Shown here piece by piece: positions 4,928-21,518 of a stretch of 38,811 nucleotides of DNA. The stretch spans positions 1 to 38,811 of the forward strand of contig JAJZKM010000008.1 in NCBI GenBank assembly GCA_021804085.1. The letters are read 5' to 3'. How positions within the stretch are numbered: the first letter of the stretch is position 1; each line of letters begins with the position of its first letter. This stretch comes from a bacterium (GTDB lineage Bacteria > Patescibacteriota > Saccharimonadia > Saccharimonadales > UBA4665). Below the pieces are notes generated by a model. It ran no database searches. It saw only the letters and a list, made by a program, of their open reading frames with translations, and was not told the DNA's origin. Both the position numbers and the translations under genes were made by a program.

Positions 4928-5374
4928 TTAAAAACGAATAAATCCAGAGCTACCAACTAATTGGTTAGAAGTATTTAATACCCAATGTACCAATACTTGA
5001 GCTAATGCAACTATTACTAAACCCACGACTGCAAAAAGCAAAGTGTTTTTTGCTGACTGGACACTGCCACTCTCGCCACCAGAGCTTATGTATCGAAAAC
5101 CGCCATAAATGATCATAATTACAGCTACAATACCCACCACTACAGACAATATGTTTACGACAGTCGACGCAGCACTCTTGATACCACCACCTATGGTAGA
5201 ACCAGAACCGCATGTAGTTTGTCCTCCTGTTGCATCGTTTACTCCACTATTAACTTCACTCTGGATCTCAGTACATGCTGTTGCCGCTGATGCCGCCACA
5301 GGAATCAGCATAGGCATGCTAAATGCAAAAACACTTAAAATTACGGTAATATAAATCCTTATTTTTCCTATCAT
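4928..5374 (-). CDS. T4SS pilin-like small membrane protein (paralog 1)
   Basis: N-terminal signal segment; core ILSVVVGIVAVIMIIYGGFRYISSGGESGSVQSAKNTLLFAVVGLVIVALAQVLVHWVLN; two TM helices typical of VirB2/TrbC-like pilins. Confidence 0.8.
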   Translation of the reverse strand: MIGKIRIYITVILSVFAFSMPMLIPVAASAATACTEIQSEVNSGVNDATGGQTTCGSGSTIGGGIKSAASTVVNILSVVVGIVAVIMIIYGGFRYISSGGESGSVQSAKNTLLFAVVGLVIVALAQVLVHWVLNTSNQLVGSSGFIRF

Positions 5375-5409
5375 GTTGGTATCTTACCCCTTATTTTTCA
5401 TTCTTACTT

Positions 5410-5892
5410 TTATATTAACACGAGATGGCGCAAAATCAATAGTGATAGTGGTTGAAAATTAATTAGGCTACTTGCGACATTAATCGATGAGTTTAATACC
5501 CAATGAACTAAAACCTGGGCAAGGGCAGCAACCACCAAGCCTAGAAGAGCATAAGCAATCGTCGTTTTGGCTGAAGATACAGATTGTTGATTTCCGCCCG
5601 AAGTAACAAAACGAAGTCCGCCAATTATTATCATAATCACTGCAATCACGCCCAGGACATAGCTTAAAATATTTATCGTAGTTCTAACAGCGCCTTTGAG
5701 GCTAGAGCCACCTGTTCCACAACCTTGTGTGTTTCCACTAAGCTCCGCTATTCCCGCACAAGCTCCAGCGCTTGCGTTAGTTAATGTACTGATAGTATTG
5801 TTTGGTATCGATGCTGCAAAAACCTCTATATGCATAGAAGTCATCAACATAAACACTGAAAGGACAGTAGCAAAAAATATTGATATTCTCAT
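5410..5892 (-). CDS. T4SS pilin-like small membrane protein (paralog 2)
   Basis: Signal segment; core ILSYVLGVIAVIMIIIGGLRFVTSGGNQQSVSSAKTTIAYALLGLVVAALAQVLVHWVLN. Confidence 0.8.
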   Translation of the reverse strand: MRISIFFATVLSVFMLMTSMHIEVFAASIPNNTISTLTNASAGACAGIAELSGNTQGCGTGGSSLKGAVRTTINILSYVLGVIAVIMIIIGGLRFVTSGGNQQSVSSAKTTIAYALLGLVVAALAQVLVHWVLNSSINVASSLINFQPLSLLILRHLVLI

Positions 5893-5900
5893 ATTCTTCC

Positions 5901-6308
5901 TTATTTATAGCTGTTTAAAACAAATATTACTATGGTTTGGGCCAACACCACGATCACAATACCGACTAAAGCCCCAACTATACTTTTTTTAGCACCAGCC
6001 ACAGAACTTGAATCACCACCACTTGTGACAAACCTAATTCCACCAACTATCAGCATGATCACTGCGGCTGTCCCGGTTATGTAAGAGAGAACATTTATGA
6101 CATCCTTGATAATTTCGATGACAACATTAGTATTACTTCCATTCTGTATAGAGACGTTCTTACACACAGAGGTATTTTGAGCTATTTCACCTTTTTGGCA
6201 AATAGGCAGATAGGTGGAGTCTGCGGACGCGGCAATTGGAATACCTAGGGACACAAAAGCGATAAGTCCGAGAATCACAATTGAAATTAATAAATATAAT
6301 TTATTCAT
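5901..6308 (-). CDS. T4SS pilin-like small membrane protein (paralog 3)
   Basis: Signal segment; core VLSYITGTAAVIMLIVGGIRFVTSGGDSSSVAGAKKSIVGALVGIVIVVLAQTIVIFVLN. Confidence 0.8.
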   Translation of the reverse strand: MNKLYLLISIVILGLIAFVSLGIPIAASADSTYLPICQKGEIAQNTSVCKNVSIQNGSNTNVVIEIIKDVINVLSYITGTAAVIMLIVGGIRFVTSGGDSSSVAGAKKSIVGALVGIVIVVLAQTIVIFVLNSYK

Positions 6309-6622
6309 TTTATAAAGCTAATCGCCAACGTTACAATTGATTCGGCAAAAAGAGCAACCACAAGTCCTATAACAGCATACAGTATTGTGTCTTTGGCCTC
6401 TTGCATAGATTTAGGGTCTCCTGAAGATATGGTATACCTGAACCCGCCAATAACAACAAACAGTACAGCAATAGCAGCCAATATTCCAAAAAACATTTGT
6501 AATATAGTATGAAGCTCGCTTGACGATGCGGACACTGTTGGAATATTGGTCTTATAGCAATTTCCCCCAACACCATATTCGCTCCCTGAACATAAACTAG
6601 AGATTGTTGTAAGGTAATGCAT
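6305..6622 (-). CDS. T4SS pilin-like small membrane protein (paralog 4)
   Basis: Core GILAAIAVLFVVIGGFRYTISSGDPKSMQEAKDTILYAVIGLVVALFAESIV; ATGA overlap with paralog 3; no obvious cleavable signal peptide. Confidence 0.75.
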   Translation of the reverse strand: MHYLTTISSLCSGSEYGVGGNCYKTNIPTVSASSSELHTILQMFFGILAAIAVLFVVIGGFRYTISSGDPKSMQEAKDTILYAVIGLVVALFAESIVTLAISFIK

Positions 6623-6624
6623 TA

Positions 6625-7098
6625 TTATGCTCCAAGCCCTTTTGCAATAAAAGTAACTAAAAAGGCGGCAGAAATAGCAATCAATAACCCGACTAGGGAA
6701 TATATTATTGTATTTAACGCCTGAGCAGTTACTTCGGGGGTGCCCATACTTGTAGTGTATCTAACCGCCGCGTAAATTATCATAACAACTGCAGCGATTC
6801 CTGCTACCCTAAGAAGAATTTCTATTATTGCCGCAACAATTAACCAAATATCCGCTATGTTATTTATTACTGGAACACACGAAGTGTTGAACCCCATATC
6901 TCCTTGTATCGTTTCTTGGCGCATAGGTAAAAACTCGTACCACGTAGGAAGTCCAAATATTGATGTGTTGTTTTTGCAGCTGACATTAAATGCTGCGACA
7001 GTTGTTTGCGCAAATGTCTTGCCAAAGAAAACAAAAGGTACCATCACGAGAATTGCGAAAACACTAATAAATTTATACTTAAGCATCTGGTTGCTCAT
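6625..7098 (-). CDS. T4SS pilin-like small membrane protein (paralog 5, diverged)
   Basis: Signal segment ending FAQT; core RVAGIAAVVMIIYAAVRYTTSMGTPEVTAQALNTIIYSLVGLLIAISAAFLVTFIAKGLGA. Confidence 0.75.
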   Translation of the reverse strand: MSNQMLKYKFISVFAILVMVPFVFFGKTFAQTTVAAFNVSCKNNTSIFGLPTWYEFLPMRQETIQGDMGFNTSCVPVINNIADIWLIVAAIIEILLRVAGIAAVVMIIYAAVRYTTSMGTPEVTAQALNTIIYSLVGLLIAISAAFLVTFIAKGLGA

Positions 7099-7529
7099 AA
7101 TCCAAAAACACCCGCCGGTACAATGTAGTTAAGGATGGCATAAATAAAAAGAAATAATATAAGTGCCGTAAACGAACTCTGAATCCGCTTTGATGCGGCA
7201 GCAACTGCTTGTGGATTACCAGATGAAAAGATATATTGAATACCAGCAACAGTAATCGAAGCAATTATTACCAGACCAACACCGTCAGAAAGCAATCGAA
7301 TAATAGAAAACAATAAATCTAAAATAGGATTACCTTTGCCAACACACCCAAAATCTATACTTGTCTTAACTGTATCGCTTCCACTACCGCAGACATAGGT
7401 TGCGGCAAAGTGACTATTCGAGATAGGTAAAGCATAGGTCGTAGCTGTGGAGTGAAAAAAACTAATCGCCATGATCATCAACGATATGACTGTTAGGGGT
7501 TGCAGAATGGTTATTTTGATTTTGTTCAC
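7095..7529 (-). CDS. T4SS pilin-like small membrane protein (paralog 6, most diverged), GTG start
   Basis: Core GVGLVIIASITVAGIQYIFSSGNPQAVAAASKRIQSSFTALILFLFIYAILNYIV; ATGA overlap with paralog 5; GTG at 7527-7529. Confidence 0.7.
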   Translation of the reverse strand: MNKIKITILQPLTVISLMIMAISFFHSTATTYALPISNSHFAATYVCGSGSDTVKTSIDFGCVGKGNPILDLLFSIIRLLSDGVGLVIIASITVAGIQYIFSSGNPQAVAAASKRIQSSFTALILFLFIYAILNYIVPAGVFGL

Positions 7530-7547
7530 TTATGTTACCTAGTTAAG

Positions 7548-7556
7548 ATTCTATCA
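7548..7556 (-). promoter_or_regulatory. Extended -10 (TGATAGAAT) of the pilin operon
   Basis: Minus strand TGATAGAATCTTAACTAGGTAACATAAGTG: TGn + TAGAAT, 18 nt before the GTG start. Confidence 0.5.
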
Positions 7557-7610
7557 TTTTATGACGTGACGCAAAAGATAGTATATTTTGCTATTCTTAT
7601 TCTTATTCTT

Positions 7611-7619
7611 TGATATTAT
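7611..7619 (+). promoter_or_regulatory. Extended -10 (TGATATTAT) of the machinery operon
   Basis: TGATATTAT directly abuts the first ATG (7620) and lies 9 nt before the next in-frame ATG (7629). Confidence 0.5.
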
Positions 7620-7628
7620 ATGAATTAT

Positions 7629-10600
7629 ATGTTTCGAAAAAAAACAAAAAGATTTGTTACGCTACTGTTTCTCTTTTTGTTGGTCGTAATAACAGTATTT
7701 GGCCCGCTTGTTAAAAACGCATTAGCAGCCACAACATCAGGTCCACCAAACAACAGCACCGTTGATGTAACTAATGGCCCTGTGGTTAATTTGAACTGGG
7801 TTAATGAGTGTTATATATCTGGATCTATCATCTATACTGACCAATACGGAAATCAGCGAACAACCAATCTGGTCTTAAACAATGCAAACTGTATACAAAA
7901 CTGGGATCAGAACGGGATAAAGAGTAAAAACGTAGTACGATCGGGTCATACTTATGAATCAAACGGCAATACTTGCCAGAATGTCTCGTCACAATCCTAT
8001 CTTAAAATAAGTGCCTATGTACCCGCAGAAATAGTAACCGTTGGAACTCTTTATTATAATCTACCAGGTCTTAACTCCTCTTGTGGGAGTATAGACTTAA
8101 GCTCTCCCGGTTCTGGTATTCATATAGGTCAACCACAAAACGCTAATATAGTGTTCGCCATATACGGCAACAGCATAGTCCGCGTAGATAACAGTAGTTA
8201 TTTTATTTTTAATCAATCATCCTCTAATAAAAATTTATACGTTTTGAATTCTGGTGGAATCTGTAGTGATCGTATTTATGTTAACTCCCAAAATAATGCT
8301 ACCTTATGGAATTTACAGCCAAGTTCAGGTTCTGGCAATAATCAGCTCCCGGCAAATATTGAAGCTGACGGCTGCAGCGTATCTAATGATAATACGGATA
8401 TCGATGGTCCTGCAGGGGCAACCAACAACGCTAATTGTCAAACTCAATCACCTTCTGTTCTAGGTTCGATTAATCCTGTTAATGACAGTAACTTTAACAA
8501 CACATGTTCTTATCACCCCGAAAATGCAAACGGAAGTTATCCCCTTAATTTGGGTGGATCTTCAAATTTAGTTAATATAACAAACCCTTCTGCGTCCTCA
8601 TCAACTCCATCGTGTATTTCCGGAGGAGCGTTTGCCTGGCTACTCTGTCCAATTATTAATGCCCTAACAGGAGCAGAAACATATATCGAAAATCTTGTCT
8701 CGTATGCTCTTGCCACTCCACCAATTGACCTAAACCCCAACGCATGTGTTGACGGAAGTACAGGTGCGGGCCAAAATTATACAGCGTGTATATATAATGT
8801 ATGGTCAGAATTTAGGGTTTTTGGAAATATAGTCTTAGTAATAGCTCTTTTGGTGGTAGTTTTTGCAGAAGCCATGGGTGGTGGTGGTTTTGAGGCATAT
8901 GAAATAAGAAAAATTTTACCTAGGATTTTATTGGCCGCCATACTTATCAATATATCGATTTACTTAATGGCTGGATTGGTCGACATAACAAACATAATTG
9001 GTAAGGGGATTTTCGGTATAATTACAGAACCTTTTAAGGCAAGTGGTGAATATGCACTTCACTTTAACACTTCAGGGGGTAACTTCTTATTTGGTACGGG
9101 TGGCTTAATGGCAATCTTCACTGCTGGAACTTTTTGGCTTCTGTTTGCCCATGGCGGTAGTGCCGCTATTGGTGATGCTATAGGTTTTTTGGTTATGTTT
9201 GCTATTGTGCCCGCTGTATTAGCCTTGCTTGGTGTACTTTTAACTATCTTTTTCAGATCAATATTAATAGTGCTGCTTTTAATGGTGTCTCCTGTTGCAT
9301 TTGCGTTATATTGTCTACCCAATACTGAACAATATTTCCACAAATGGCTCAACCTATTGACGAAAACCTTAATGGTTTATCCGGTCGTGATGGTTATCTT
9401 CGCTATGTGTGACATTGGGGCGGTTGTCGTAACTACCTTTACCACTATTACTTGGTTAGGAGATCTTTTGGCCATAGTTGCTGTTACCGCACCTTTATTT
9501 TTGGTTCCTTTTGCCTTTAAGTTTGCTGGAGGAACAATTACCGCTATGCATGGAGCAATAACTAATATAGCCAATAAAGCCCATGCGGGCATGTTGGGTG
9601 ACCCCAACGATCCATACAGCATGCAAAATCGAACCAAACGAAAGTTTGCTGTCCGGCGAAACGATGCTGGTCTAACAGGCTCCCAACTAGGAACCAGAAT
9701 CAATCCTAGACAGATATACTCCAAAGATGCTAGAGAAAGAGCTAAGTCTCGACTAAGTGCTCAAAAACAAGCCGGTCTCGAAACATTAAGACGACAGGGC
9801 CAAGAGAGTCCGTTGTGGCACATATATCAAAATGATTCTGAAGTTAATAAAGTGCTAGCGGAGCACAGAAGCGCAGGGGAAGCCAGAAATGCTTTGAATA
9901 ACTGGAGAGACACAAATCTACGGGGAGCTTCTGACGACCAAAAGGAATTAATCAATAAAAAATATACTAGCAAAATGTCAGCAATCGCGGCGGCAGAAAA
10001 AATTGGCTTCAATTCTGCCACTAGACGCGCAGCATTACTTAATCCAAACTATATTAAATTTGAAGCTGCTGAGGGTGAAGAAGGGTGGAATAAGGCTGTA
10101 GGTATTATGCACGACATAAGCGGTGGTGATGAGTTTCAGTTTCGCTCAATAATGAATGAGTATCGAGCACAAGCAAAGGCGGCTGGCCGATTTGACCAAT
10201 TGGGCAACAAAGAAGGTAATGTCAGTTATGATGGTCAGGCAGCGTGGAACGACCAAAGCTTGTATAACATTGCTCAGGGAAGTCCAAAAACTGTTCGTGG
10301 TAGCAGCAACTACTATGCTGGTGTAATCAATCGGGCTAGTGCAGGCACTTTGGAAGAAAATGGCCGAGATGCTAGTTTCTTTGCAGAAGCAAAACGCAGA
10401 GGTCTCAATAAGCCTGAAGATGTCAAAAAGATTGCACTTAATTCCGCTGGAATATTTTACAACGAACTCGGGGTTGTTGGTAACGCTGGTTCGGGAATAA
10501 TGCGTGACGAAGCCCTGGCAGCTCAGCGCCGGATAAGACAAATGTTAGATATAGCAACACAGCCCGACGGAGGAATTCAGACTATACTAAACTCAGAAGA

Positions 10601-10661
10601 TGTGAAGCAAGGTACTAGAAACCCATCAGGTCCAATAAATCAACCCAACTCTAACCCATGA
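7629..10661 (+). CDS. VirB6/TrbL-like polytopic T4SS membrane protein with secretion signal and large charged C-terminal domain
   Basis: ORF 7620..10661; N-terminal signal (MFRKKTKRFVTLLFLFLLVVITVFGPLVKNALA), Cys-containing N-terminal domain, central multi-TM block (VFGNIVLVIALLVVVFAEAMGGGGFEAYEIRKILPRILLAAILINISIYLMAGLVDITNI...), hydrophilic C-terminus. Start 7629 preferred because 7620 abuts the -10. Confidence 0.75.
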   Translation: MFRKKTKRFVTLLFLFLLVVITVFGPLVKNALAATTSGPPNNSTVDVTNGPVVNLNWVNECYISGSIIYTDQYGNQRTTNLVLNNANCIQNWDQNGIKSKNVVRSGHTYESNGNTCQNVSSQSYLKISAYVPAEIVTVGTLYYNLPGLNSSCGSIDLSSPGSGIHIGQPQNANIVFAIYGNSIVRVDNSSYFIFNQSSSNKNLYVLNSGGICSDRIYVNSQNNATLWNLQPSSGSGNNQLPANIEADGCSVSNDNTDIDGPAGATNNANCQTQSPSVLGSINPVNDSNFNNTCSYHPENANGSYPLNLGGSSNLVNITNPSASSSTPSCISGGAFAWLLCPIINALTGAETYIENLVSYALATPPIDLNPNACVDGSTGAGQNYTACIYNVWSEFRVFGNIVLVIALLVVVFAEAMGGGGFEAYEIRKILPRILLAAILINISIYLMAGLVDITNIIGKGIFGIITEPFKASGEYALHFNTSGGNFLFGTGGLMAIFTAGTFWLLFAHGGSAAIGDAIGFLVMFAIVPAVLALLGVLLTIFFRSILIVLLLMVSPVAFALYCLPNTEQYFHKWLNLLTKTLMVYPVVMVIFAMCDIGAVVVTTFTTITWLGDLLAIVAVTAPLFLVPFAFKFAGGTITAMHGAITNIANKAHAGMLGDPNDPYSMQNRTKRKFAVRRNDAGLTGSQLGTRINPRQIYSKDARERAKSRLSAQKQAGLETLRRQGQESPLWHIYQNDSEVNKVLAEHRSAGEARNALNNWRDTNLRGASDDQKELINKKYTSKMSAIAAAEKIGFNSATRRAALLNPNYIKFEAAEGEEGWNKAVGIMHDISGGDEFQFRSIMNEYRAQAKAAGRFDQLGNKEGNVSYDGQAAWNDQSLYNIAQGSPKTVRGSSNYYAGVINRASAGTLEENGRDASFFAEAKRRGLNKPEDVKKIALNSAGIFYNELGVVGNAGSGIMRDEALAAQRRIRQMLDIATQPDGGIQTILNSEDVKQGTRNPSGPINQPNSNP

Positions 10662-12976
10662 GCCAAGAAAATAACGGTTTATACGACTTTCAACCCAACA
10701 AAAGAAACATAAACAAACATGCTGGTGTTGCGGAGTCACTTAAAGAGCAAGAAAACAAAGCGTCAGACAGCGCACGAGACTCAGAGAATTTTAAAGAAAA
10801 TTTAGGTTCAGATGGCCTATACAAAAAAGAGAAAGATTCATCGATTAGCGATTCTTCTCAAAAAAGCATGAAAATGCCACAGAAAATGAAAAATATTTTT
10901 TGGGGCACAAAAAAAAGGAAAATCGCCACCTCCAGTACTGGTATTGTAGGATCAATTGTTAGTGTTGTTTTTTCGATGATTTTTCTAGCTGCAGGTCCTG
11001 CTCAATTAATTCAGCTATCTAATATTCTTGGTGGTGATTTGTCTACTATGGATGGAGCCACCTCATTGCGATATAGTAGTTTATTGCGTTATTCTGGATC
11101 TCAGGACATCGGAGAAACAAGATTAGGTGTTCTAGGGAAACTCTACTTAAGACCCCAGCTCAAGGCTATGGAAGATATTGGTGTTACATTCAACACTAAT
11201 TCGTCTGGGGGACTAAAAAGTACAACCATTGACACAGAAAAATACACAAATAGCATTTCAGACGTCAAAGGCTATACTCCTGAAGAACTAAGATCCTATT
11301 TGGCAGACAATATAAGTGGATTAAATCTTTCTGAGATTACCAATAATGGAGACGGGACTTTGACAATAGGAGGTTCTTCGGCTGAACTTACAACAAGCCT
11401 ATCGAGATCAATCGTCAATTCGTTTACCGACGACTTGCCAAGTAGCAAGATTCTTACTGCCATGACTAAACGTGTTTTTAAGGACTATTTTGATGCTCCT
11501 TCACTATTTCATCCATATAAGGTTATTAAGTCCAAAACTAGACAAGCTATCACAAAAATTACAGATAAAGCAGAAGAGGAAAAGTCTGTAAAGGAAGATG
11601 TTGTCGACCCTGAAGCGCAGGCAACTAATTTAACTAATATAAAAAGTAATTTAGATTCGTTTTTTAAAGATTCTAGTGCAGGAAAAGCCATCACCAAGGC
11701 ACTACTAATCACTGCTTTCGCCTGTACTATACGTTCTGCGGCTAAATATGTAGTTGAGTTTAATAGGGCTGCAATAGTACTTCCAGCGGCACTGGAAGCG
11801 GTTCGCCTAGTTTCTGCGGGTAATCAAGTTGAGTCTGGTCAAAACGTGTCGCTTTCTCAGGTCGGAGCTACAGTTGGAAGTTTCGTTAATAGTAGCGGCC
11901 AATCCATCTGGAGCGCAAAGTCTCTGCAGGTAACGGCAAACATGGCCAATCCATCAGGTCCTAATTTACCCACTCAATATGCGCAAGCTTTTTCTGGAAA
12001 AACCACTGCGAACAATATTATAAACGGAATGGATGCCGGAGGCGCCATAGTTGGTTTTGCGTGTAGCCCGATCGGGCAAGTTATTCAGGGGCTTACTGGA
12101 TTAATTGCTCTTTTATCCGCCGTACCAACCGATGGTACGTCTCTAGCAGGTTTTTATGCGGTTAAGGGTACTGAGCTTGGAACCACAATGGTTCTCTTTA
12201 TGTCTTTGCAAAAAATTTTAGAAAAGGTATTTGAAGATAAGGCCGTAGTCCCTGCAGTTCTTAGTGGACCACTGGGCGGCAACTTAATGGCATATGGGGC
12301 CAGGGAGGCTGGAAATATGGGTGCTCGTTCGGAAGGAGGGGTTGCATTGTCTAGTTCTGACACCCAAAAAGTAGTTGCGTATGATCAGTCCCAAAGTAAA
12401 AAACAATTTTCTTCACAAGATTTCTTCGCAAGAATCTTTAACATTGATAGCAATAATTCCCTTTTCGGAAAACTTGCTGATTATATTCAGCCAAGCATTA
12501 AAAGCGTTGGTGACACTTTTTTGGGATTATTTAATTTTGGTCATATTTTTTCAGGAATTGTATCTTCCATATTGCCTAAGGCTAGCGCCGCCAGTACTCC
12601 ATATAACTGGGAATTTCCCTTATATGGCATACCATCAAGTATTCTAGATAGTAGTGATCCAACCATGCAAAACCCTTACGCAAACGCAAACGAAGTTAGT
12701 CAACTACTGAACACACAGTCTACAGAAGCTCAAAACATGATAAACCGCGCGAACACTTGTTTTGGTGTCAGTATTGAAAAAATATCAGGACAGTGGTCTG
12801 TGATCCCACAAAGTGATGTTAACCCTGACACTTCATCATATATAAACGCAGACTGCAACAACCTAAGTGATAATAACTGGCAGAGAATAATTCTGTTTGT
12901 TTTGGATTCACGAACAATGGATGCATATGCCTGTTATAGAGGAAATCAGCAGTCATGCAGCAATACAGGATTTTAA
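10658..12976 (+). CDS. Large T4SS-associated membrane protein, function unknown
   Basis: ATGA overlap with the VirB6-like gene; basic N-terminus, TM at STGIVGSIVSVVFSMIFLAAGPAQLIQL, further hydrophobic segments. Confidence 0.7.
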   Translation: MSQENNGLYDFQPNKRNINKHAGVAESLKEQENKASDSARDSENFKENLGSDGLYKKEKDSSISDSSQKSMKMPQKMKNIFWGTKKRKIATSSTGIVGSIVSVVFSMIFLAAGPAQLIQLSNILGGDLSTMDGATSLRYSSLLRYSGSQDIGETRLGVLGKLYLRPQLKAMEDIGVTFNTNSSGGLKSTTIDTEKYTNSISDVKGYTPEELRSYLADNISGLNLSEITNNGDGTLTIGGSSAELTTSLSRSIVNSFTDDLPSSKILTAMTKRVFKDYFDAPSLFHPYKVIKSKTRQAITKITDKAEEEKSVKEDVVDPEAQATNLTNIKSNLDSFFKDSSAGKAITKALLITAFACTIRSAAKYVVEFNRAAIVLPAALEAVRLVSAGNQVESGQNVSLSQVGATVGSFVNSSGQSIWSAKSLQVTANMANPSGPNLPTQYAQAFSGKTTANNIINGMDAGGAIVGFACSPIGQVIQGLTGLIALLSAVPTDGTSLAGFYAVKGTELGTTMVLFMSLQKILEKVFEDKAVVPAVLSGPLGGNLMAYGAREAGNMGARSEGGVALSSSDTQKVVAYDQSQSKKQFSSQDFFARIFNIDSNNSLFGKLADYIQPSIKSVGDTFLGLFNFGHIFSGIVSSILPKASAASTPYNWEFPLYGIPSSILDSSDPTMQNPYANANEVSQLLNTQSTEAQNMINRANTCFGVSIEKISGQWSVIPQSDVNPDTSSYINADCNNLSDNNWQRIILFVLDSRTMDAYACYRGNQQSCSNTGF

Positions 12977-12977
12977 A

Positions 12978-14255
12978 ATGAAACGGCTTATTAATAATAT
13001 TGCTAAAGTTATTTTTATTTTAATAATTGCCCTTGTTGTGACAAATGTACCTGGCGCGGTGGTCGATGGACTAAGCCAAAGTCAAGTTAATCTTTTGCAG
13101 TCAAATATTCTTTATTTTGATTCTAGTAACTACGCCTGTTCGGGAAGCACTAGTGCTGGCAACAGCCTTGACTCATGGATGCAGGCAGAAGCAATCATGG
13201 AAAGTGGCAACAATCCAAAGTCTAACAGTGGAGATTTGGCATATGGAAAATATCAAATAATTCCTAGCACCTGGGAAGGGTACGCCGTTGCTTTTTACCC
13301 TCCAGCCGAAAAATATCCAACCGCAAATCTCGCTCCATCAAATATTCAGGACGCGCTTGTGTATCTAGCAAACATACCTGTTTATAAAGAGTTTAACGGG
13401 GATCCTTTCTGGTTAGCTGTTAACTGGTATAGCCCCACTGACGACCAATACTATCCCAACAAAAACGCACCTGGACTTAACGCAATTCCAGACCCAGGTG
13501 CCGGCAATAAGACTACTGTGTTTGATTATGCTACCAGCATAGCCAACGCAGTAAGCACGGGCAACCTTAACAATACGACACTAAGTTCTGTAAGCTTATC
13601 TTATTCATCTGCGCCTAATTTCTCCACCTATCTAGCTCAAGATGGTGGAGCTCCAACCGCGCGAACCTCCACTGCAACTAGTTTAACTTCAAACAATTGT
13701 AGTTCATCGTTAGCTAATGACTGCCAAATAGGTTCGGGAAGCTCTAAGACGGTAACCGGTCCAAATGCCGCCATTCTGTGTGAGGCGGAACAATACTCTG
13801 GAATATATTATCTATGGGGGGGTGGTCATGGATATAACTCTTTCAGGTTAAAGTGTCCCGAATCGTCAATATCGGCAGCGGCTAGTACAAGTACTGCTTC
13901 AAACCCCGGTAACTGCGCGACTGACTGTAGTGGTCTAGTAAGTGTTGCTGTAGACGCTGTATATAACCAAGATTTTAACTGGATAGTTTCAGAAACTAAC
14001 GGAGCAATGGAAGGAGGTGGTTCGCAGTACTGGCAACAAATTCCCATATCCCAGGCTCAAGCGGGAGATATTGTTACGCACTATGCTCCTGGAGATGGAC
14101 ATGTTGAGATTGTGGAGTCCGTAAACGGTAATACTGTTTACACTTTTGGTTCACATGAGCCTGGGGTACAGACTGGGCCAGCAACACCCCCAGGAAATAT
14201 TAATTACTGGAACGGAGGTGCTTGGCGCTATATAGGGCCAGGCAGTAATTCATGA
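12978..14255 (+). CDS. Bifunctional secreted peptidoglycan hydrolase: transglycosylase-like + NlpC/P60 domain
   Basis: Start at ATG 12978 (MKRLINNIAKVIFILIIALVV...). Transglycosylase-like SWMQAEAIMESGNNPKSNSGDLAYGKYQIIPSTWEGYA; NlpC/P60 YLWGGGH...DCSGLVSVAV...AQAGDIVTHYAPGDGHVEIVES. Confidence 0.85.
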   Translation: MKRLINNIAKVIFILIIALVVTNVPGAVVDGLSQSQVNLLQSNILYFDSSNYACSGSTSAGNSLDSWMQAEAIMESGNNPKSNSGDLAYGKYQIIPSTWEGYAVAFYPPAEKYPTANLAPSNIQDALVYLANIPVYKEFNGDPFWLAVNWYSPTDDQYYPNKNAPGLNAIPDPGAGNKTTVFDYATSIANAVSTGNLNNTTLSSVSLSYSSAPNFSTYLAQDGGAPTARTSTATSLTSNNCSSSLANDCQIGSGSSKTVTGPNAAILCEAEQYSGIYYLWGGGHGYNSFRLKCPESSISAAASTSTASNPGNCATDCSGLVSVAVDAVYNQDFNWIVSETNGAMEGGGSQYWQQIPISQAQAGDIVTHYAPGDGHVEIVESVNGNTVYTFGSHEPGVQTGPATPPGNINYWNGGAWRYIGPGSNS

Positions 14256-14671
14256 AAAATACTTTAATAGTATTATCGGTTGTTTTCTTTATTTTTATAA
14301 TTAGCTTTTTAGTTAAGGACACTCTGCTGGGTGGAGCAAAATATGTAACGCTTAGCAATGAGCCAATATACGTGGCGGTTTCAGCTGGTTTAAAAAGTAA
14401 ATCTCACGAAAACTATACACCTATAGAAGGAAAAGACTACACTATAACGTCGACGCATTTTTTGAACAACAATTCGTGGATAGTTGTCGGCGTTCAACCA
14501 GTCGGAGCATCGGCGGATCCGGGTTTAATGGTATTGCATAAAATAGGCAATTCCTATGTAAGTGTAATCGGATCAGTTGGTTCTGTATCTAACTCTCTTT
14601 TGGGGGGTGTAATCGTAGGCCAACTTCCGCCAAATGTCATTAATTATATTAAAAATTTAAACAATGATTAA
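14252..14671 (+). CDS. Small membrane-anchored protein, T4SS operon
   Basis: ATGA overlap with preceding CDS; N-terminal TM (TLIVLSVVFFIFIISFLV) and a globular C-terminus. Confidence 0.7.
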   Translation: MKNTLIVLSVVFFIFIISFLVKDTLLGGAKYVTLSNEPIYVAVSAGLKSKSHENYTPIEGKDYTITSTHFLNNNSWIVVGVQPVGASADPGLMVLHKIGNSYVSVIGSVGSVSNSLLGGVIVGQLPPNVINYIKNLNND

Positions 14672-15239
14672 TAATATTCAATTAAAGATAAAATTTTTAC
14701 TAGTTTTTATTATAATTTTATTGGTCTTGGGCACAGTATATAACCTAATAGATGCTATTTACATAAATCAAGTCACTGGAACATTGATAGCTAACTCTCC
14801 CGGGAACTTTCTAACCATAGAGCAGGGGAAAGATAAACTAGTTAACCTAGGGTGGTCGACGGCGAAAGTAAAGCTTCGTCCAGGATCGTATCTACTCTTG
14901 GCTAGCTCTGGCCACTCTCAAACAAGTAGTTCATTTTCTATAGTAGCCAAAAAAACAACCGTAAAGAGTATTAGTATTAAAAAAACGCTTAGTCCCGAGT
15001 ATTTAATCTCTAGCGTTGATGGAAATAAACTGATAGCTAGTTTGCCATTTATTGGTCCAAATTTTAACTACGAAATAAACTACAAATATCAAATTATGCA
15101 AAAAGCTAATTTACCAATAATTGTTATAACGGCACCAAACACCACTTATCGCAACGATGCACTTAATGTTATTAAAGCTCTTGGGTTTAATCCTTCAGTA
15201 CTTAATATTCAATATGTCGTAGCCACTCCAAGCCCATAA
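14664..15239 (+). CDS. Membrane-anchored protein with PEGA-like beta domain, T4SS operon
   Basis: 8-nt overlap with previous CDS; N-terminal TM; GTLIANSPGNFLTIEQGKDKLVNLGWSTAKVKLRPGSYLLLASSGHSQTSSSF resembles PEGA-type domains. Confidence 0.65.
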   Translation: MINNIQLKIKFLLVFIIILLVLGTVYNLIDAIYINQVTGTLIANSPGNFLTIEQGKDKLVNLGWSTAKVKLRPGSYLLLASSGHSQTSSSFSIVAKKTTVKSISIKKTLSPEYLISSVDGNKLIASLPFIGPNFNYEINYKYQIMQKANLPIIVITAPNTTYRNDALNVIKALGFNPSVLNIQYVVATPSP

Positions 15240-15248
15240 TTTACTATA

Positions 15249-15280
15249 TAAAATCAAAATGGTGATTTTACTTATTTTTG
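15249..15280 (+). terminator. Weak Rho-independent terminator
   Basis: Perfect 8-bp stem TAAAATCA / TGATTTTA, loop AAATGG, followed by CTTATTTTTG. Confidence 0.45.
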
Positions 15281-15396
15281 TAACTGGGCAATACTTATGC
15301 TTACTACAAAATATGCTCTGTTAAACAAAAAACGGATCGATTAAAGGTAGTGTCTATGTCATAATTCATAGATCGATATATCTAACAACTTTACTC

Positions 15397-15405
15397 TGTT
15401 ATAAT
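15397..15405 (+). promoter_or_regulatory. Perfect extended -10 (TGTTATAAT) upstream of the prgI-like gene
   Basis: TGn + consensus TATAAT, only 8 nt before ATG 15414; no SD sequence between. Confidence 0.6.
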
Positions 15406-15413
15406 TAAAACCA

Positions 15414-16325
15414 ATGGCTACTTATAAACTAATTCAGGACATTGAAGCAGAAGACCACATATTGGGACCACTGACCCTTAGGCAGTTTATATATTCTCTT
15501 GTTACTTTATTTTTAGTATATTTGTGTTTTGTGGTAATTCAAAAGCATGTGGTTTTCTTGTTGGCGCTTTTTCTACCCCCTACACTAATATCTGGCCTCT
15601 TTGCCTTTCCCTCAAAGAGAGATCAACCAACTGAACTTTGGGTCTTAGCTTTACTTGTTTATGCATTGAAGCCACGCGTGCGCGTATGGAGTCAAAGTGG
15701 CGTAAAAGAATTTCTCACCGTAACAGCCCCCCCAAAGCAGGAAAACCCTTTAACAAAAAATTTATCCGGTGACGAAATAAAAAACAAACTAGAGTCGTTA
15801 GCGATGACAATTGACACCCGTGGGTGGTCATTGAAAGACTCTACTTATCAACTTCAAGCGAACGATACTTCGTCGGATAGATTATTGCAAACATCAGACC
15901 TGCCTAGCCCGGTGGAATCTGATGCCCAAGATGACGATGATATGTTTGACAATACGAATAGTGGTGCATCATTTATGGATCAAATGATAAAACATAAAGA
16001 CGAAGAAAGACATCGAGCTCTTTTTGAGGCTATGAACACTACCCAAAACCCTCAAACAACTAAAGAAAACGAAAGCATTATTAGTGAGAAGTTAAAATCG
16101 CTGCGCCTAGACTCCCAACTCTCGACTTCAAATCTAAAAACATTCCCGGTAAAGTCTTCGGTAGATTCTGAGGTTCATAACAAGGAAAAAGAACAAGTTG
16201 CGACAGAAACACACGCAGATCCTGATAAAATCAGTTTTGCGCTCAATAATAGCAATAACCTAACCATAAAAACATTGGCTAATGAAGCAAGTAAGGCAAA
16301 TGAGGTTACCATAAAGCTACGTTAG
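15414..16325 (+). CDS. PrgI-family T4SS inner-membrane protein with long hydrophilic C-terminus
   Basis: N-terminal YKLIQDIEAEDHILGPLTLRQFIYSLVTLFLVYLCFVV and second TM match the two-TM PrgI family; located directly before VirB4 genes. Confidence 0.8.
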   Translation: MATYKLIQDIEAEDHILGPLTLRQFIYSLVTLFLVYLCFVVIQKHVVFLLALFLPPTLISGLFAFPSKRDQPTELWVLALLVYALKPRVRVWSQSGVKEFLTVTAPPKQENPLTKNLSGDEIKNKLESLAMTIDTRGWSLKDSTYQLQANDTSSDRLLQTSDLPSPVESDAQDDDDMFDNTNSGASFMDQMIKHKDEERHRALFEAMNTTQNPQTTKENESIISEKLKSLRLDSQLSTSNLKTFPVKSSVDSEVHNKEKEQVATETHADPDKISFALNNSNNLTIKTLANEASKANEVTIKLR

Positions 16326-16344
16326 TAGTGGCAAATATTAAATC

Positions 16345-17205
16345 ATGAATCCACAACAAATAAATAACAATCAGGAATACTCAACTACACAAGCCTCTGG
16401 CCCAGTAGCTCAGCCAGAAAGTGTCACTCGCCAACCTTTAATACCGTTCATCAAGAACACAAAGACCAGTAAATCTAACCCTAATAGCACCCAGAACATG
16501 CTTGAAATTGCAGAAATTCGAGATGGTATAGTTATAATGAATGACGGTAGTTTTCGTTGTGTGCTTATGGTCAAAAGTATTAATTTTGACCTAATGAGTC
16601 AGCAAGAACAAGAGGCTGTTGAGTTCTCTTATCAGGGTTTTTTAAATTCGCTAACTTTTCCTATTCAAGTTTTTATACGCACCCAAAGAATAGACATGCA
16701 GCCATACATTGATAAACTAGAAAAAATACGAAGCGAACATGACAATATGCTTTTAGCCATGTTGATGGACGACTATATAGACTTTATTGATTCATTAAGT
16801 CAACAAACAAATATTATGGATAAAAAGTTTTATGTGGTCATACCGTTTTATAGCACTGCAATCGACGAGTCAAAAACTTTATCACAAGGAAAAAACTTTG
16901 TTAGCGGTCTTGCAGATATGTTTAGTAATAAAAAAACTCATATAGTTATAAACGAGACTAAGTTAGAGGCGGCGAAAACCGAACTAAGAAATAGGGCTCA
17001 ATCGATACTTGGGTCTCTGTCGCAGGCCGGCATTCAAGGATTGCCGCTAGACACCCAGGAATTAATTGAGTTGTTTTATGGTGTTTATAATCCAGACACA
17101 GCCACGAGACAGGAACTCTCCGACATAAATAATCTTACGGCGGACGTAATTACGAAAGGGGTAGGTACGGCAATTCAGCCACACCTACAAAAGGAACTAC
17201 AATAA
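16345..17205 (+). CDS. VirB4/TraC N-terminal-like domain protein
   Basis: EIAEIRDGIVIMNDGSFRCVLMVKSINFDLMSQQEQEAVEFSYQGFLNSLTFPIQVFIRTQRIDMQPYID is characteristic of the VirB4/TraC N-terminal region; followed 2 nt later by the ATPase gene. Confidence 0.8.
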   Translation: MNPQQINNNQEYSTTQASGPVAQPESVTRQPLIPFIKNTKTSKSNPNSTQNMLEIAEIRDGIVIMNDGSFRCVLMVKSINFDLMSQQEQEAVEFSYQGFLNSLTFPIQVFIRTQRIDMQPYIDKLEKIRSEHDNMLLAMLMDDYIDFIDSLSQQTNIMDKKFYVVIPFYSTAIDESKTLSQGKNFVSGLADMFSNKKTHIVINETKLEAAKTELRNRAQSILGSLSQAGIQGLPLDTQELIELFYGVYNPDTATRQELSDINNLTADVITKGVGTAIQPHLQKELQ

Positions 17206-17207
17206 CA

Positions 17208-19118
17208 ATGGGTTTATTTAAAAAAAAGGTGGATCCTATAGCTGTGGCTGGACAACAGAGGGCAAAAGAGGCTCAAGAAGTTCAGGAGGCGTTTCAAAAA
17301 GGTATAACTGCTCTACGAGATTTTATAGCTCCAAGTTCATTGGTTTTAAATAATTCTTTTTTTCAAATAGGAACCAGGTTCGCAAGAAGCTATTACGTAT
17401 ACGGCTATCCAAGACAGGTTTACACGGGATGGTTAGGGGGTCTTGTTAATCTAGATGAGGTTTTAGATATAAGTATGTATATCTATCCTGTTGAAAGTCA
17501 GGTTGTTCTCCAAAATCTTCGCAAAAAAGTTACCCAACTCGAAGCTGGAATACAAATAGATATGGAAAAAGGTAAGGTTAGAGACCCAGGAAAAGAGGTA
17601 GCAATTAGAGATGCTGAAGAAATGCGAGACAAACTTCAGGTTGGTGAAGAGCGTTTCTTTAGGTTTGGTCTATATTTTACTATCTATGCAAACTCAAAAG
17701 ATGAACTAGAGTTCGTATCGCACAAAGTCGAAACCATACTAGGACAACAGCTTATATATAGCAAACCCGCCACTTCTCAACAAGAACAGGGGTTTAATTC
17801 TACTATTCCCCAACTAACCGACAAACTCCAAATTCGCAGAAACATGAGCACCGGAGCCCTTAGCACTAGCTTTCCTTTTACTTCGGCTGATCTTAGCCAG
17901 GAAAACGGTATTTTGTACGGAGTTAATATGCATAATTCTGGGTTAGTTATTTTTGACCGTTTCTCTCTTGAGAACGGTAATTCGGTTGTTTTTGCTAAAT
18001 CTGGTGCTGGAAAATCATTTACCGTTAAACTTGAGGCTTTACGTTCATTAATGTTTGGTTCTGAAATAATAATCATTGATCCAGAAAATGAGTATCAACG
18101 ACTCTGTGAGGCTGTTGGAGGGTCATATGTTAGGTTGAGCCTAAATAGCTCAGTTCGTCTTAACCCATTTGATTTACCAGGGGTTGTGGATGACGAAGAA
18201 GCTGACAACGCCTTAAAATCTAACCTTATTACTTTGCATGGTTTATTACGCTTAATGATGGGAGGTGCTCAAACTCAGATGATGGGGGGTGCTGCAGCCC
18301 TCATTCCAGCCCTATCCCCCTCAGAAGAGGCTGACTTGGATGGAGCACTTATAGACACTTATGCTAAGGTTGGAATAACTAACGATCCTTTAACCCATAC
18401 AGGAACTCCTCCTACAATACCTATTTTGTATGACATTTTGCTTCATATGGGAGGAAATGGCCCCCAGTTGGCACAGCGGTTAAGAAAATATACCAGTGGG
18501 ACTTTTGCTGGGATTTTTAGCCATCAATCCAACATAGACATCAATAATCCTATGACGGTGTTTAATGTTCGAGATTTAGAAGATGAGCTTCGTCCGGTTG
18601 CGATGTATATTATCCTAAACTATATTTGGAATAAGACTAAAACAGACAAGAAAAAAAGAATTCTAATAGTTGATGAGGCCTGGCAGTTGATGAAATACGA
18701 AGACTCGGCCAGTTTTCTTTTCAGCTTGGCTAAACGTGCAAGAAAATATGGACTTGGAATAACCACCATCACCCAGGATGTGGAAGATTTTATGGGAAGT
18801 CGTTTGGGTAGAGCTATAGTATCCAACTCGTCAATGCAATTCTTAATGAAACAGTCTCCTTCGGCGGTTGATGTTCTGGCTGATGTTTTTAAACTAACAT
18901 CTGAGGAGAAAAAAAGATTAAGTCAGTTTCCGGTTGGTCAAGGATTATTTTTCGCTGGATCCAACCATGTTCATATACAGGTAATAGCTAGTGCTACGGA
19001 AACTTCTCTAATTTCAACAACTCCAAAATCGATTCAGAACCAGGGATCAATTAATCTCAACACTTCCTCGGACAGTGGAGAGATTAGTATGTCTAATACT
19101 CCTAGTCCTAGTTTATAG
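17208..19118 (+). CDS. VirB4-family T4SS ATPase
   Basis: Walker A AKSGAGKSFTVK, IIIIDPENEYQRL, Walker B RILIVDEAWQLMK, ITQDVEDF motif. Confidence 0.93.
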   Translation: MGLFKKKVDPIAVAGQQRAKEAQEVQEAFQKGITALRDFIAPSSLVLNNSFFQIGTRFARSYYVYGYPRQVYTGWLGGLVNLDEVLDISMYIYPVESQVVLQNLRKKVTQLEAGIQIDMEKGKVRDPGKEVAIRDAEEMRDKLQVGEERFFRFGLYFTIYANSKDELEFVSHKVETILGQQLIYSKPATSQQEQGFNSTIPQLTDKLQIRRNMSTGALSTSFPFTSADLSQENGILYGVNMHNSGLVIFDRFSLENGNSVVFAKSGAGKSFTVKLEALRSLMFGSEIIIIDPENEYQRLCEAVGGSYVRLSLNSSVRLNPFDLPGVVDDEEADNALKSNLITLHGLLRLMMGGAQTQMMGGAAALIPALSPSEEADLDGALIDTYAKVGITNDPLTHTGTPPTIPILYDILLHMGGNGPQLAQRLRKYTSGTFAGIFSHQSNIDINNPMTVFNVRDLEDELRPVAMYIILNYIWNKTKTDKKKRILIVDEAWQLMKYEDSASFLFSLAKRARKYGLGITTITQDVEDFMGSRLGRAIVSNSSMQFLMKQSPSAVDVLADVFKLTSEEKKRLSQFPVGQGLFFAGSNHVHIQVIASATETSLISTTPKSIQNQGSINLNTSSDSGEISMSNTPSPSL

Positions 19119-20151
19119 GCTCATTTTCTATTCGAATAATATTTTTAGGTATTAAGTTTTTCACCAACACGGTTGTGGTTATAACCGTCTGACGATCTTC
19201 TATAAGAGAAGCTAGGGTTGCGGACCTTTTTTGATCTAGTTCACTAAAAACATCATCTAGAAAAATTATAGGTTCAACCCCTAGGTGTTTTTGGATATTT
19301 TCTGCTTCCAGGGTTTTTAGTGCTATAGCTATAGTTCTAGTTTCGCCTCTTGAAGCAATAAATGACGGCTGCTTGTTGTCTATTAATATCTCTAAGTCGT
19401 CACGATGTGGACCGTAACTAGTATGTAGTCTAATTAAGTCTTTAGGCATGTTTTGTTCTAGTTTAGATAGCATTTGGCTTTCATAAGAGCCAAACCCGAT
19501 ATTTGATAAATACCTAAGTGATATTAGCTCTTTGCGGCCAGAAATGGCACCATAGACATCGCTTATATTATCACCTAGGTCTTTTATTAGTTCCGTGCGA
19601 CACGCAGCTATAACCCCTCCTAAATGGCTTAAACGAACGTTCCATGGGAATATGTTTATTTTGTTAGCCGTGCCGCTTTTTAGAAGATAGTTTCTCTGTC
19701 TAAGTGTTTTAGAATAGTCGTTTCTGGTCTTTTTAAACCCTGGTTTAATATTATTGAGAATATTATCTAAATAATTGCGTCTTATTTCGGGAGATCCGGT
19801 AATAAGGTTTGTGTGGCTTGGTTCAAATAGAACCGTAGGTATTATTTGGTTTGATCCTAAACGATGGTATGTTTTTCCATCAATAATAAAGTCTTTTTTA
19901 AGGGGTTCTATTTTAACAACTCTTTTTGTGTTAAACGTGTCTAGATCTATTCTCGCCCACTTTTTGTGGTGCATAATTAATTCACTGTCTGGTGCTCGAT
20001 ACGATCTCCCGGAACATGCGACAAATAAAGCTTCTAGGAGATTGGTTTTACCACTTCCGTTAGGACCAATAATAATATTTACCCCGGGGCTAAAAGTAAA
20101 AAACGAATCTTTATGTGATCGGTATTGTTGAAGTCTTACTTCGGCGATCAT
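19108..20151 (-). CDS. recF: DNA replication/repair protein RecF
   Basis: IIGPNGSGKTNLLEALF, TSYGPHRDDLEI, SRGETRTIAIALK, FLDDVFSELD; adjacent to dnaN. Confidence 0.95.
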   Translation of the reverse strand: MIAEVRLQQYRSHKDSFFTFSPGVNIIIGPNGSGKTNLLEALFVACSGRSYRAPDSELIMHHKKWARIDLDTFNTKRVVKIEPLKKDFIIDGKTYHRLGSNQIIPTVLFEPSHTNLITGSPEIRRNYLDNILNNIKPGFKKTRNDYSKTLRQRNYLLKSGTANKINIFPWNVRLSHLGGVIAACRTELIKDLGDNISDVYGAISGRKELISLRYLSNIGFGSYESQMLSKLEQNMPKDLIRLHTSYGPHRDDLEILIDNKQPSFIASRGETRTIAIALKTLEAENIQKHLGVEPIIFLDDVFSELDQKRSATLASLIEDRQTVITTTVLVKNLIPKNIIRIENEPIN

Positions 20152-20159
20152 TCAGTTTT

Positions 20160-21251
20160 CTAGCTCTTTAAGGGCATTATTACATGATGATAGTTAGGAG
20201 CTTTTGGATCATATAATAAGGTTGGTTCCAGCTTGCCATTAAAGCCAAAAACTACGTTCTCACCAGAAATTACATTTAGTGCGTCCAGGAGGTATCTAGA
20301 GTTTAGTGTTATATCACCTGAACCTTTAACTTTACCGTTTACTGTCGCTGTATTCTCTCCTAACTGAGAGGCTACGGAGTGGATATTTAGTGTATTTTTT
20401 TCCTCATTTAGCTCGATCGTAACACTACCTGCACTTTCTCTAGCGAAAAGAGCGGATACTTTAGTTACGTTTAATAGCTCATTTTTCTTAAGTTCAATTG
20501 TTGACGTAAATTTATTAGGGATTAGTTTTTGGTAGTCTGGGTAGTTTCCATTAACTAAACGGGTTGTGAGTTCACTTTCTCCGGTTTGAAATAATATTTG
20601 CTGATCGTCGTGTGTAACAACAACCTCACCATCATAATCACCTATAACCCTAAGCAGGTCATTTATAGCATTTGCTGGAACTAGTACAGATATGTCGTTG
20701 CTCGATTTTCCTATTTCTTTTTCTGCTAATCGGTAACTGTCGGTAGCTGCAATATATAGCTTCTTGTCTTTGGTGTGTATATATATACCAGTTAAAACCT
20801 GTCTAGTTTCGTCATTACTGGCAGCAAAAACAACCTGCTGTAATCCTTTTTTCAAAACTAGTGAGTTAATTTTCCAACTCTGTCCGTTGTTAATTAATGG
20901 CATAACAGGAAAATCATCAGCAATAATACCGTTCACTATGGAGTGGTATTGATCAGTGTTGATATCAAGCTTAGTACCGTTTAATTCTAAATCTATGACT
21001 CCTTGAGGTAGGCTATTTACAAATTCTTGCATTAGCTTTGATGGTACTGTTATCGCTCCTTCTTCTTGAATTTTCGCACCGATGTGATGAACAATTGCTA
21101 TATCTAGATTTGTAGCTAATAAACTTAGCCGATTTTTAGTTGTTTTAATTAGCACGTTAGCTAGTATCGGAAGGGTATTGTGACTGTTAGCAATTCTTCC
21201 GACAGAAGAAAGGGCACGATTTAGGTTTTCTTGGGTTACTTGTAATTTCAT
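20160..21251 (-). CDS. dnaN: DNA polymerase III subunit beta (sliding clamp)
   Basis: MKLQVTQENLNRALSSVGRIANSHNTLPILANVLI...; C-terminal YHHVIMPLKS; between dnaA and recF. Confidence 0.97.
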   Translation of the reverse strand: MKLQVTQENLNRALSSVGRIANSHNTLPILANVLIKTTKNRLSLLATNLDIAIVHHIGAKIQEEGAITVPSKLMQEFVNSLPQGVIDLELNGTKLDINTDQYHSIVNGIIADDFPVMPLINNGQSWKINSLVLKKGLQQVVFAASNDETRQVLTGIYIHTKDKKLYIAATDSYRLAEKEIGKSSNDISVLVPANAINDLLRVIGDYDGEVVVTHDDQQILFQTGESELTTRLVNGNYPDYQKLIPNKFTSTIELKKNELLNVTKVSALFARESAGSVTIELNEEKNTLNIHSVASQLGENTATVNGKVKGSGDITLNSRYLLDALNVISGENVVFGFNGKLEPTLLYDPKAPNYHHVIMPLKS

Positions 21252-21314
21252 ATTCTAAAATTCCTCTCTAATTAACTATTAAACAAAAACAATATATTAA
21301 TATATTTAGTTTTA

Positions 21315-21320
21315 ATTATA
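21315..21320 (-). promoter_or_regulatory. Putative -10 (TATAAT) of dnaN
   Basis: Minus strand ...CACCCCCTATAATTAAAAC..., 63 nt upstream of the dnaN ATG. Confidence 0.35.
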
Positions 21321-21334
21321 GGGGGTGTGAAAAG

Positions 21335-21397
21335 TGTGTATAAAAACTTCTTTAGAGAAGTTAAAATAACCACAAAGACAGTGATTTTGGTGGTTAT
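21335..21397. promoter_or_regulatory. dnaA-dnaN intergenic structured element: DnaA-box-like site plus two adjacent inverted repeats
   Basis: TGTGTATAA (21335-21343; reverse complement TTATACACA fits TTWTNCACA); AACTTCT-TTAG-AGAAGTT (21345-21362); ATAACCAC ... GTGGTTAT (21366-21397). Confidence 0.45.
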
Positions 21398-21518
21398 AAA
21401 ATGTGTTAAATAAGTCTTAAGTTGCACAATAGACTGTAGAAAAAACAACTCCTTCCGTTTTTTATCAATAGTTTGTGCACAGAATTGGTAAGCATATAAA
21501 CATATTTTAAACATCTTA

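Follow-up and report, generated by a model that had tools for sequence, protein, structure and literature searches.

In Candidatus (Ca.) Southlakia epibionticum a type IV secretion system (T4SS), including a series of pilins as well as other T4SS genes, is essential, and no coupling or relaxase proteins are recognisable in it (PMC10633639); its array comprises six divergent VirB2-like pilins (PMC12857230). A survey of 3,035 Patescibacteria genomes described VirB2 arrays of 2 to 11 genes located near dnaA, with relaxases being rare, and the arrays were interpreted as a possible source of versatility in host adaptation (PMC12102498). The role of the saccharibacterial T4SS has been termed completely unknown (PMC11665869). 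Here, we discuss a locus of this type in a 38,811-nucleotide stretch of DNA (contig JAJZKM010000008.1, referred to below as the window) from a 652-kb assembly that is 81% complete. Six adjacent pilin open reading frames (ORFs) of 105-160 aa, all on the minus strand (4928-7529), diverge from a plus-strand operon encoding VirB6-like, PrgI, TrsD and VirB4 proteins (7620-19118). Relatives in the same genus match contigs from metagenome-assembled genomes (MAGs) labelled Ca. Saccharibacteria, i.e., the epibiotic lineage assumed in an earlier note on the window is supported.

The locus is a member of the published chromosomal, origin-proximal T4SS of Patescibacteria and Saccharibacteria, which is derived from MPF_FATA (PMC12102498): VirB4 is of the Gram-positive conjugative FATA/CD1110 type, the TrsD gene is found beside VirB4, a PrgI/VirB3 protein is present, and the mostly relaxase-free pilin array lies near dnaA. 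The earlier note had described the pilin genes and the diverging gene set correctly, but the system is not new; the term "new kind" is unsupported because six pilins, the lack of coupling and relaxase proteins and the position near dnaA had all been published (PMC10633639, PMC12102498, PMC12857230). The new point, which was not found stated in the cited literature on this T4SS, is that the pilins constitute a set which is largely fixed and ordered and has been kept in many families.

This conclusion is drawn from the VirB4-linked loci found in 33 relatives, together with 80 named loci that are mostly saccharibacterial; pilins in these loci were detected with an iterated profile seeded with domains from the window and from a second locus discussed below. 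The counts exclude any array truncated at the end of a contig or locus, as well as contigs occurring in both sets. The complete arrays numbered 32 and 23, respectively. L063 and L120 were counted once, as they seem to represent a single locus contained in two assemblies, which left 54 distinct arrays. Six pilin domains were found in 40 of these, five in 6 and seven in 8. Neighbours are fused into one two-domain ORF in several arrays (P4-P5 or P5-P6; the genes are numbered as in Table 1), which is why five-gene arrays still give six domains. The P4 slot is the short one in nearly all arrays, and when profiles trained on individual slots were applied to further arrays, the ending P4-P5-P6 was recovered in 18 of 23 and P3-P4-P5-P6 in 13 of 23.

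The best match in other genomes was found in the same slot for 97% of P6, 96% of P5, 91% of P1 and 76% of P4 proteins, and the best matches of P3 and P2 often fell in the P1/P2 group. A FastTree analysis grouped P6, P5 and P4 completely (29/29 each, the P4 group also including one P3) and P3 in 27 of 29 cases. With IQ-TREE (16 genomes), P6, P5 and P4 formed single clades (support 100/99, 99/96 and 88/95, respectively), P3 required two changes, and P1 and P2 were intermingled, some families showing pairs from the same genome. Thus, P6, P5 and P4 each constitute one ancient orthologous group, P3 nearly does so, and P1 and P2 form a dynamic pair, the members of which probably duplicate or convert within lineages.

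The junction between P2 and P1 has a median length of 68 nt, while the other junctions span -4 to 7 nt. The motif TGnTATAA is found about 40 nt before the P1 start in 24 of 47 arrays (mean 1.0 and maximum 5 in shuffled sequences), and GAAAGG about 14 nt before the start in 27 of 47 (mean 0.3, maximum 2); in the training arrays neither motif precedes any of the P2-P6 genes (0/145). P1 alone has a leader that is wide and contains an extended -10-like element, i.e., a putative promoter, along with a strong Shine-Dalgarno sequence. No RNA structure was detected in this leader (mean folding z-score +0.4), and a strict -10 scan, in which T was required at position 6, gave 9 matches compared to 8.4 expected, but missed the TATAA[A/G] form. 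The core of P1 is also the most conserved among the six slots (57% identity between genomes), and because of this core, the promoter-like leader and the strong ribosome-binding site (RBS), P1 is the likely major subunit.

All six proteins exceed the gathering score of the T4SS_pilin family PF18895 (29.2-58.6 bits; cut-off 26.6), and a search of the whole genome with this profile returned these six and two more at the second locus. None exceeds the cut-off of the TrbC/VirB2 profile PF04956, where P1, P3 and P4 score 22-24.8 bits (cut-off 27.9) and P2, P5 and P6 are unmatched, i.e., the profile check proposed in the earlier note supports the pilin assignment with the former family and not with the latter. 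Most of the pilins have signal-peptide-like N-termini. In AlphaFold2 models a two-helix hairpin follows the N-terminal part, and in the P5 model this hairpin is preceded by a beta hairpin. Profile searches of solved chains returned nothing for P1 and only weakly matching calcium-channel helices for P5.

With modest confidence, we favour a model of the origin-proximal saccharibacterial T4SS in which P1 serves as the major pilin and each of P3-P6 (and P2) is a minor subunit with a dedicated role. Here, P1 would be made in excess to form the body of the structure, and P3-P6 (and P2) would reside at the tip, at the base or in an initiation complex. VirB6 would provide the docking site and VirB4 the driving force, the wall hydrolase would open a path, and the assembly would contact the host bacterium and exchange material with it. 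The two options raised in the earlier note fared differently: a heteropolymeric structure, its polymerisation being predicted, is favoured by the slot orthology and the P1-only leader, while a switchable one is disfavoured by the fixed P4-P6 groups and the lack of repeats (see below).

A number of observations weigh against this assignment of major and minor subunits. No pilus of this system has been reported in the cited literature, and the thick pilus seen by electron cryo-tomography (cryo-ET) in N. lyticus was not considered a likely T4SS pilus (PMC12206443). Neither the P1 nor the P5 model had a significant match in Foldseek searches of the PDB, although short helical hairpins are uninformative queries in such structure searches. 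The P1 excess and the subunit stoichiometry are deduced from sequence signals, of which the promoter-like one precedes P1 in roughly half of the arrays and, in the window, has a weaker form that lacks both the TG and the GAAAGG. The slot trees were calculated from just 75 alignment columns; the slots are not all strictly orthologous because of the two changes in P3 and because P1 and P2 are not separated outside the window's own family, and distant arrays, with 5-7 domains, show less clear slots.

Extending the model to the whole group, it is conceivable, and suggested here tentatively, that the VirB2-type pilus or pore of Saccharibacteria is heteromeric, being built from a fixed set of one separately expressed major pilin and four or five ancient minor pilins. 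To our knowledge, described VirB2-type pili are composed of one pilin each. If true, the heteromeric assembly would be a new architecture in the T4SS superfamily, in a machine that is essential for epibiosis. The fixed slots allow definite tests on this essential system, i.e., of which subunit is the major one, which ones reside at the tip or at the base, and whether all are required.

Among the alternatives, one concerns the cargo and is compatible with fixed subunits: the machine may import host nucleic acid, like the archaeal Ced/Ted systems, to feed a nucleotide-dependent epibiont. The set of VirB2, VirB4 and VirB6 without a relaxase is as in Ced/Ted (PMC9905601), VirB4 partially matches the DNA_import_CedB model (E=2.5e-18, below cut-off), and the T4SS was proposed as a nucleotide route, the competence machinery being dispensable (PMC11665869). 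However, similarity to CedB is a general property of VirB4 ATPases, and the export of proteins is an equally open function (PMC10633639); we consider this proposal plausible but doubtful.

A second alternative is that the pilins, instead of polymerising into a pilus, act as additional translocon subunits and make up a membrane ring or pore layer of mixed composition on VirB6. This idea draws on the second, compact T4SS of the genome (L011:6178-11099, contig 8), which adjoins glycolysis genes and encodes a pilin (PF04956, 35.5 bits, above cut-off), a pilin-VirB6 fusion, PrgI, TrsD-like, VirB4 and CHAP proteins; the six genes are complete and ordered in 11 of 16 other loci, most of the others being cut by contig or locus ends. 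The fusion (430 aa) has an N-terminal pilin domain, passes the cut-offs of both PF18895 and TrbL_4, and is kept in 13 further loci of this second module. The VirB6 protein of archaea, CedA, also resembles its pilin (PMC9905601), and a ring would be consistent with the N. lyticus tomograms, where no T4SS pilus was identified. On the other hand, the P1-specific leader and RBS suggest an excess of P1, and signal-peptide-like N-termini are found on most pilins, such that a ring or pore layer appears unlikely.

In the 2025 survey, Bartonella and Anaplasma served as the analogy for the suggestion that the arrays store surface pilin variants, which would serve evasion or determine the host range; the switchable structure is one version of this idea. 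Consistent with such a store, the identity between pilins inside arrays is low (22-58%), the ectodomains differ in length, and P1 and P2 appear to duplicate or convert within lineages. Yet P4-P6 remain one orthologous group each, in the same order, in many families, and the ectodomain of P5 is conserved: the slot alignment shows a motif specific to this slot, FxGhPxWYxYL, outside the membrane, with an invariant Trp and flanked by two cysteines. In addition, the array was found to be free of switching signals and of notable repeats, be they direct, inverted or tandem. Because of the slot orthology, the P5 motif and the lack of repeats, the pattern is unlike that of a variant store; fixed, ordered slots argue against antigenic diversity, and the proposal is improbable as a whole and already disfavoured for P3-P6.

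Neither a coupling protein nor a relaxase is encoded within the locus, as stated in the earlier note. The PF03432 relaxase, the one class searched for, is absent from the genome at 81% completeness and was found in 1 of 61 related genomes, which agrees with the note's argument against a plain conjugation module. The lack of a coupling protein holds locally and not for the genome: TraG-D_C is absent from the 81% complete assembly and PF02534 and PF10412 remain below cut-off, but a distant VirD4/TraD/HerA-like ATPase of 738 aa is encoded on another contig (L015:550-2766, contig 19). Such ATPases were found in 41 of 41 genomes searched, with 1-4 matches each, and, judging by coordinates, two relatives (G012 contig 5 and G052 contig 37) carry the ATPase gene just 3' of the second VirB4; because of this adjacency the ATPase may serve the second module rather than the first. 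Weak PF02534 matches on contigs 24 and 6 were read from their sequences as a DEAD-box-like helicase and a GspE/PilB-like ATPase, and were rejected. It is highly improbable that the locus belongs to an integrative conjugative element, as either a remnant or a working module, for even though VirB4 passes the CD1110 conjugative-element model and the VirD4/TraD-like ATPase is present elsewhere, the PF03432 relaxase is missing and the block has retained its place, between hsp20 and recF-dnaN-dnaA, across Saccharibacteria.

Table 1. Positions of the T4SS genes and neighbouring features in the window.
Feature	Position	Strand	Basis or remark
P1, T4SS pilin, 148 aa	4928..5374	-	PF18895 42.1 bits; last gene of array
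Proposed P1 promoter and leader	5387..5439	-	TTGATT 5439-5434, 19-nt spacing, TATAA 5414-5410, G-rich run 5390-5387; overlaps P2 3' end
P2, T4SS pilin, 160 aa	5410..5892	-	PF18895 40.5 bits; closest paralogue of P1
P3, T4SS pilin, 135 aa	5901..6308	-	PF18895 37.9 bits
P4, T4SS pilin, 105 aa	6305..6622	-	PF18895 58.6 bits
P5, T4SS pilin, 157 aa	6625..7098	-	PF18895 31.5 bits
P6, T4SS pilin, 144 aa	7095..7529	-	PF18895 29.2 bits; first gene of array, most diverged
VirB6-like, 1013 aa	7620..10661	+	position and relatives' homologues; long N-terminal ectodomain and membrane helices
Large membrane protein, 772 aa	10658..12976	+	no Pfam match
VirB1-like wall hydrolase, transglycosylase-like and CHAP/NlpC-like	12897..14255	+	sub-threshold Pfam: Transglycosylas E=3.5e-5, CHAP E=0.002
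sm1, small membrane-anchored protein, 139 aa	14252..14671	+	no family; homologues in 4 relatives
sm2, small membrane-anchored protein, 191 aa	14664..15239	+	no Pfam match; homologues in 8 loci
PrgI/VirB3-like	15414..16325	+	PF12666 38.3 bits, cut-off 27
TrsD/VirB4 N-terminal-like	16345..17205	+	NF041427 E=4.5e-9 (below model cut-off), NF045971 E=3e-8
VirB4 ATPase	17208..19118	+	NF045971 (CD1110 family) 357.4 bits, cut-off 325; PF19044 99.5 bits
recF, dnaN, dnaA (origin region)	19108..22868	-	ORFs named by sequence

The remaining components of the locus are listed in Table 1. The VirB6-like protein has no match in Pfam and its name is therefore provisional, with homologues found at the equivalent position in most relatives. 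Homologues of the large membrane protein are present in 20 other related genomes, mostly directly 3' of VirB4, and those of the VirB1-like protein, the listed start of which overlaps the preceding gene and may be too early, in 8 loci. The TrsD-like gene, which adjoins VirB4, was found in 79 of 93 loci scanned, and VirB4 itself matches the solved VirB4-like protein 4ag5 (phmmer E=8e-45). In relatives, the usual gene order is hsp20, the array, VirB6, PrgI, TrsD, VirB4, large membrane protein, VirB1-like, sm1, sm2 and recF-dnaN-dnaA, the order of the latter three matching in most named relatives; in the synteny survey suggested in the earlier note, both the block and its slot order are kept beside the origin. 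In the window, unlike in most relatives, the group from the large membrane protein to sm2 (10658-15239) is relocated to between VirB6 and PrgI, and in two same-genus relatives VirB6 is placed after VirB4.

The six-pilin module is apparently missing from several genomes of the same genus, one of them 97% complete, but a loss was not concluded, as those checked mostly lack dnaN too. Neither a dnaN match nor an origin-proximal VirB4 was found in G005, G008, G010, G011, G014, G015, G016 and G056, the origin region of which seems to have been lost during MAG binning; for this reason claims of absence from such MAGs are unsafe.

In a phylum-wide search, T4SS_pilin was found in 139 of 143 Patescibacteria genomes, with 1-17 matches per genome. 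Pilin domains were also noticed within very long ORFs of 714 to 3312 aa (G124 contig 1:86515; G065 contig 86:11220; G079 contig 1:505966; L040:8647-10791), in other Patescibacteria and in one P6. Further along the window, two large secreted-looking proteins of 957 and 902 aa (32636-35509 and 36057-38765), the second rich in beta-helix-like repeats, are possible surface proteins.

In type IV pili and type II secretion systems, with their minor pilin cassettes, one major subunit is accompanied by several minor ones that are conserved and ordered. The logic of major and minor subunits would be similar in the array discussed here, but the fold is unrelated, the proteins being of the VirB2 type with two helices. 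The archaeal Ced/Ted DNA import systems (PMC9905601) share a VirB2-like pilin, VirB6, VirB4 and the lack of a relaxase with the locus, and the homology between their pilin and VirB6 parallels the pilin-VirB6 fusion of the second T4SS; however, one pilin is named per system there, compared to six here. The T4SS of S. epibionticum ML1 (SEML1_0006-0019, PMC10633639) is, by its description, alike in its pilin series, its Gram-positive-like composition, the lack of a coupling protein and relaxase, and its epibiont lineage, and differs in that the group of large membrane protein, VirB1, sm1 and sm2 genes lies between VirB6 and PrgI in the window, and not after VirB4. With the T4SS of the Patescibacteria clade (PMC12102498) the locus shares TrsD, PrgI, VirB4, the pilin array, the position near the origin and the rarity of relaxases; in contrast to the reading of the array given there, the positional orthology found here reveals a mostly fixed set, where P1 has a promoter-like leader of its own.

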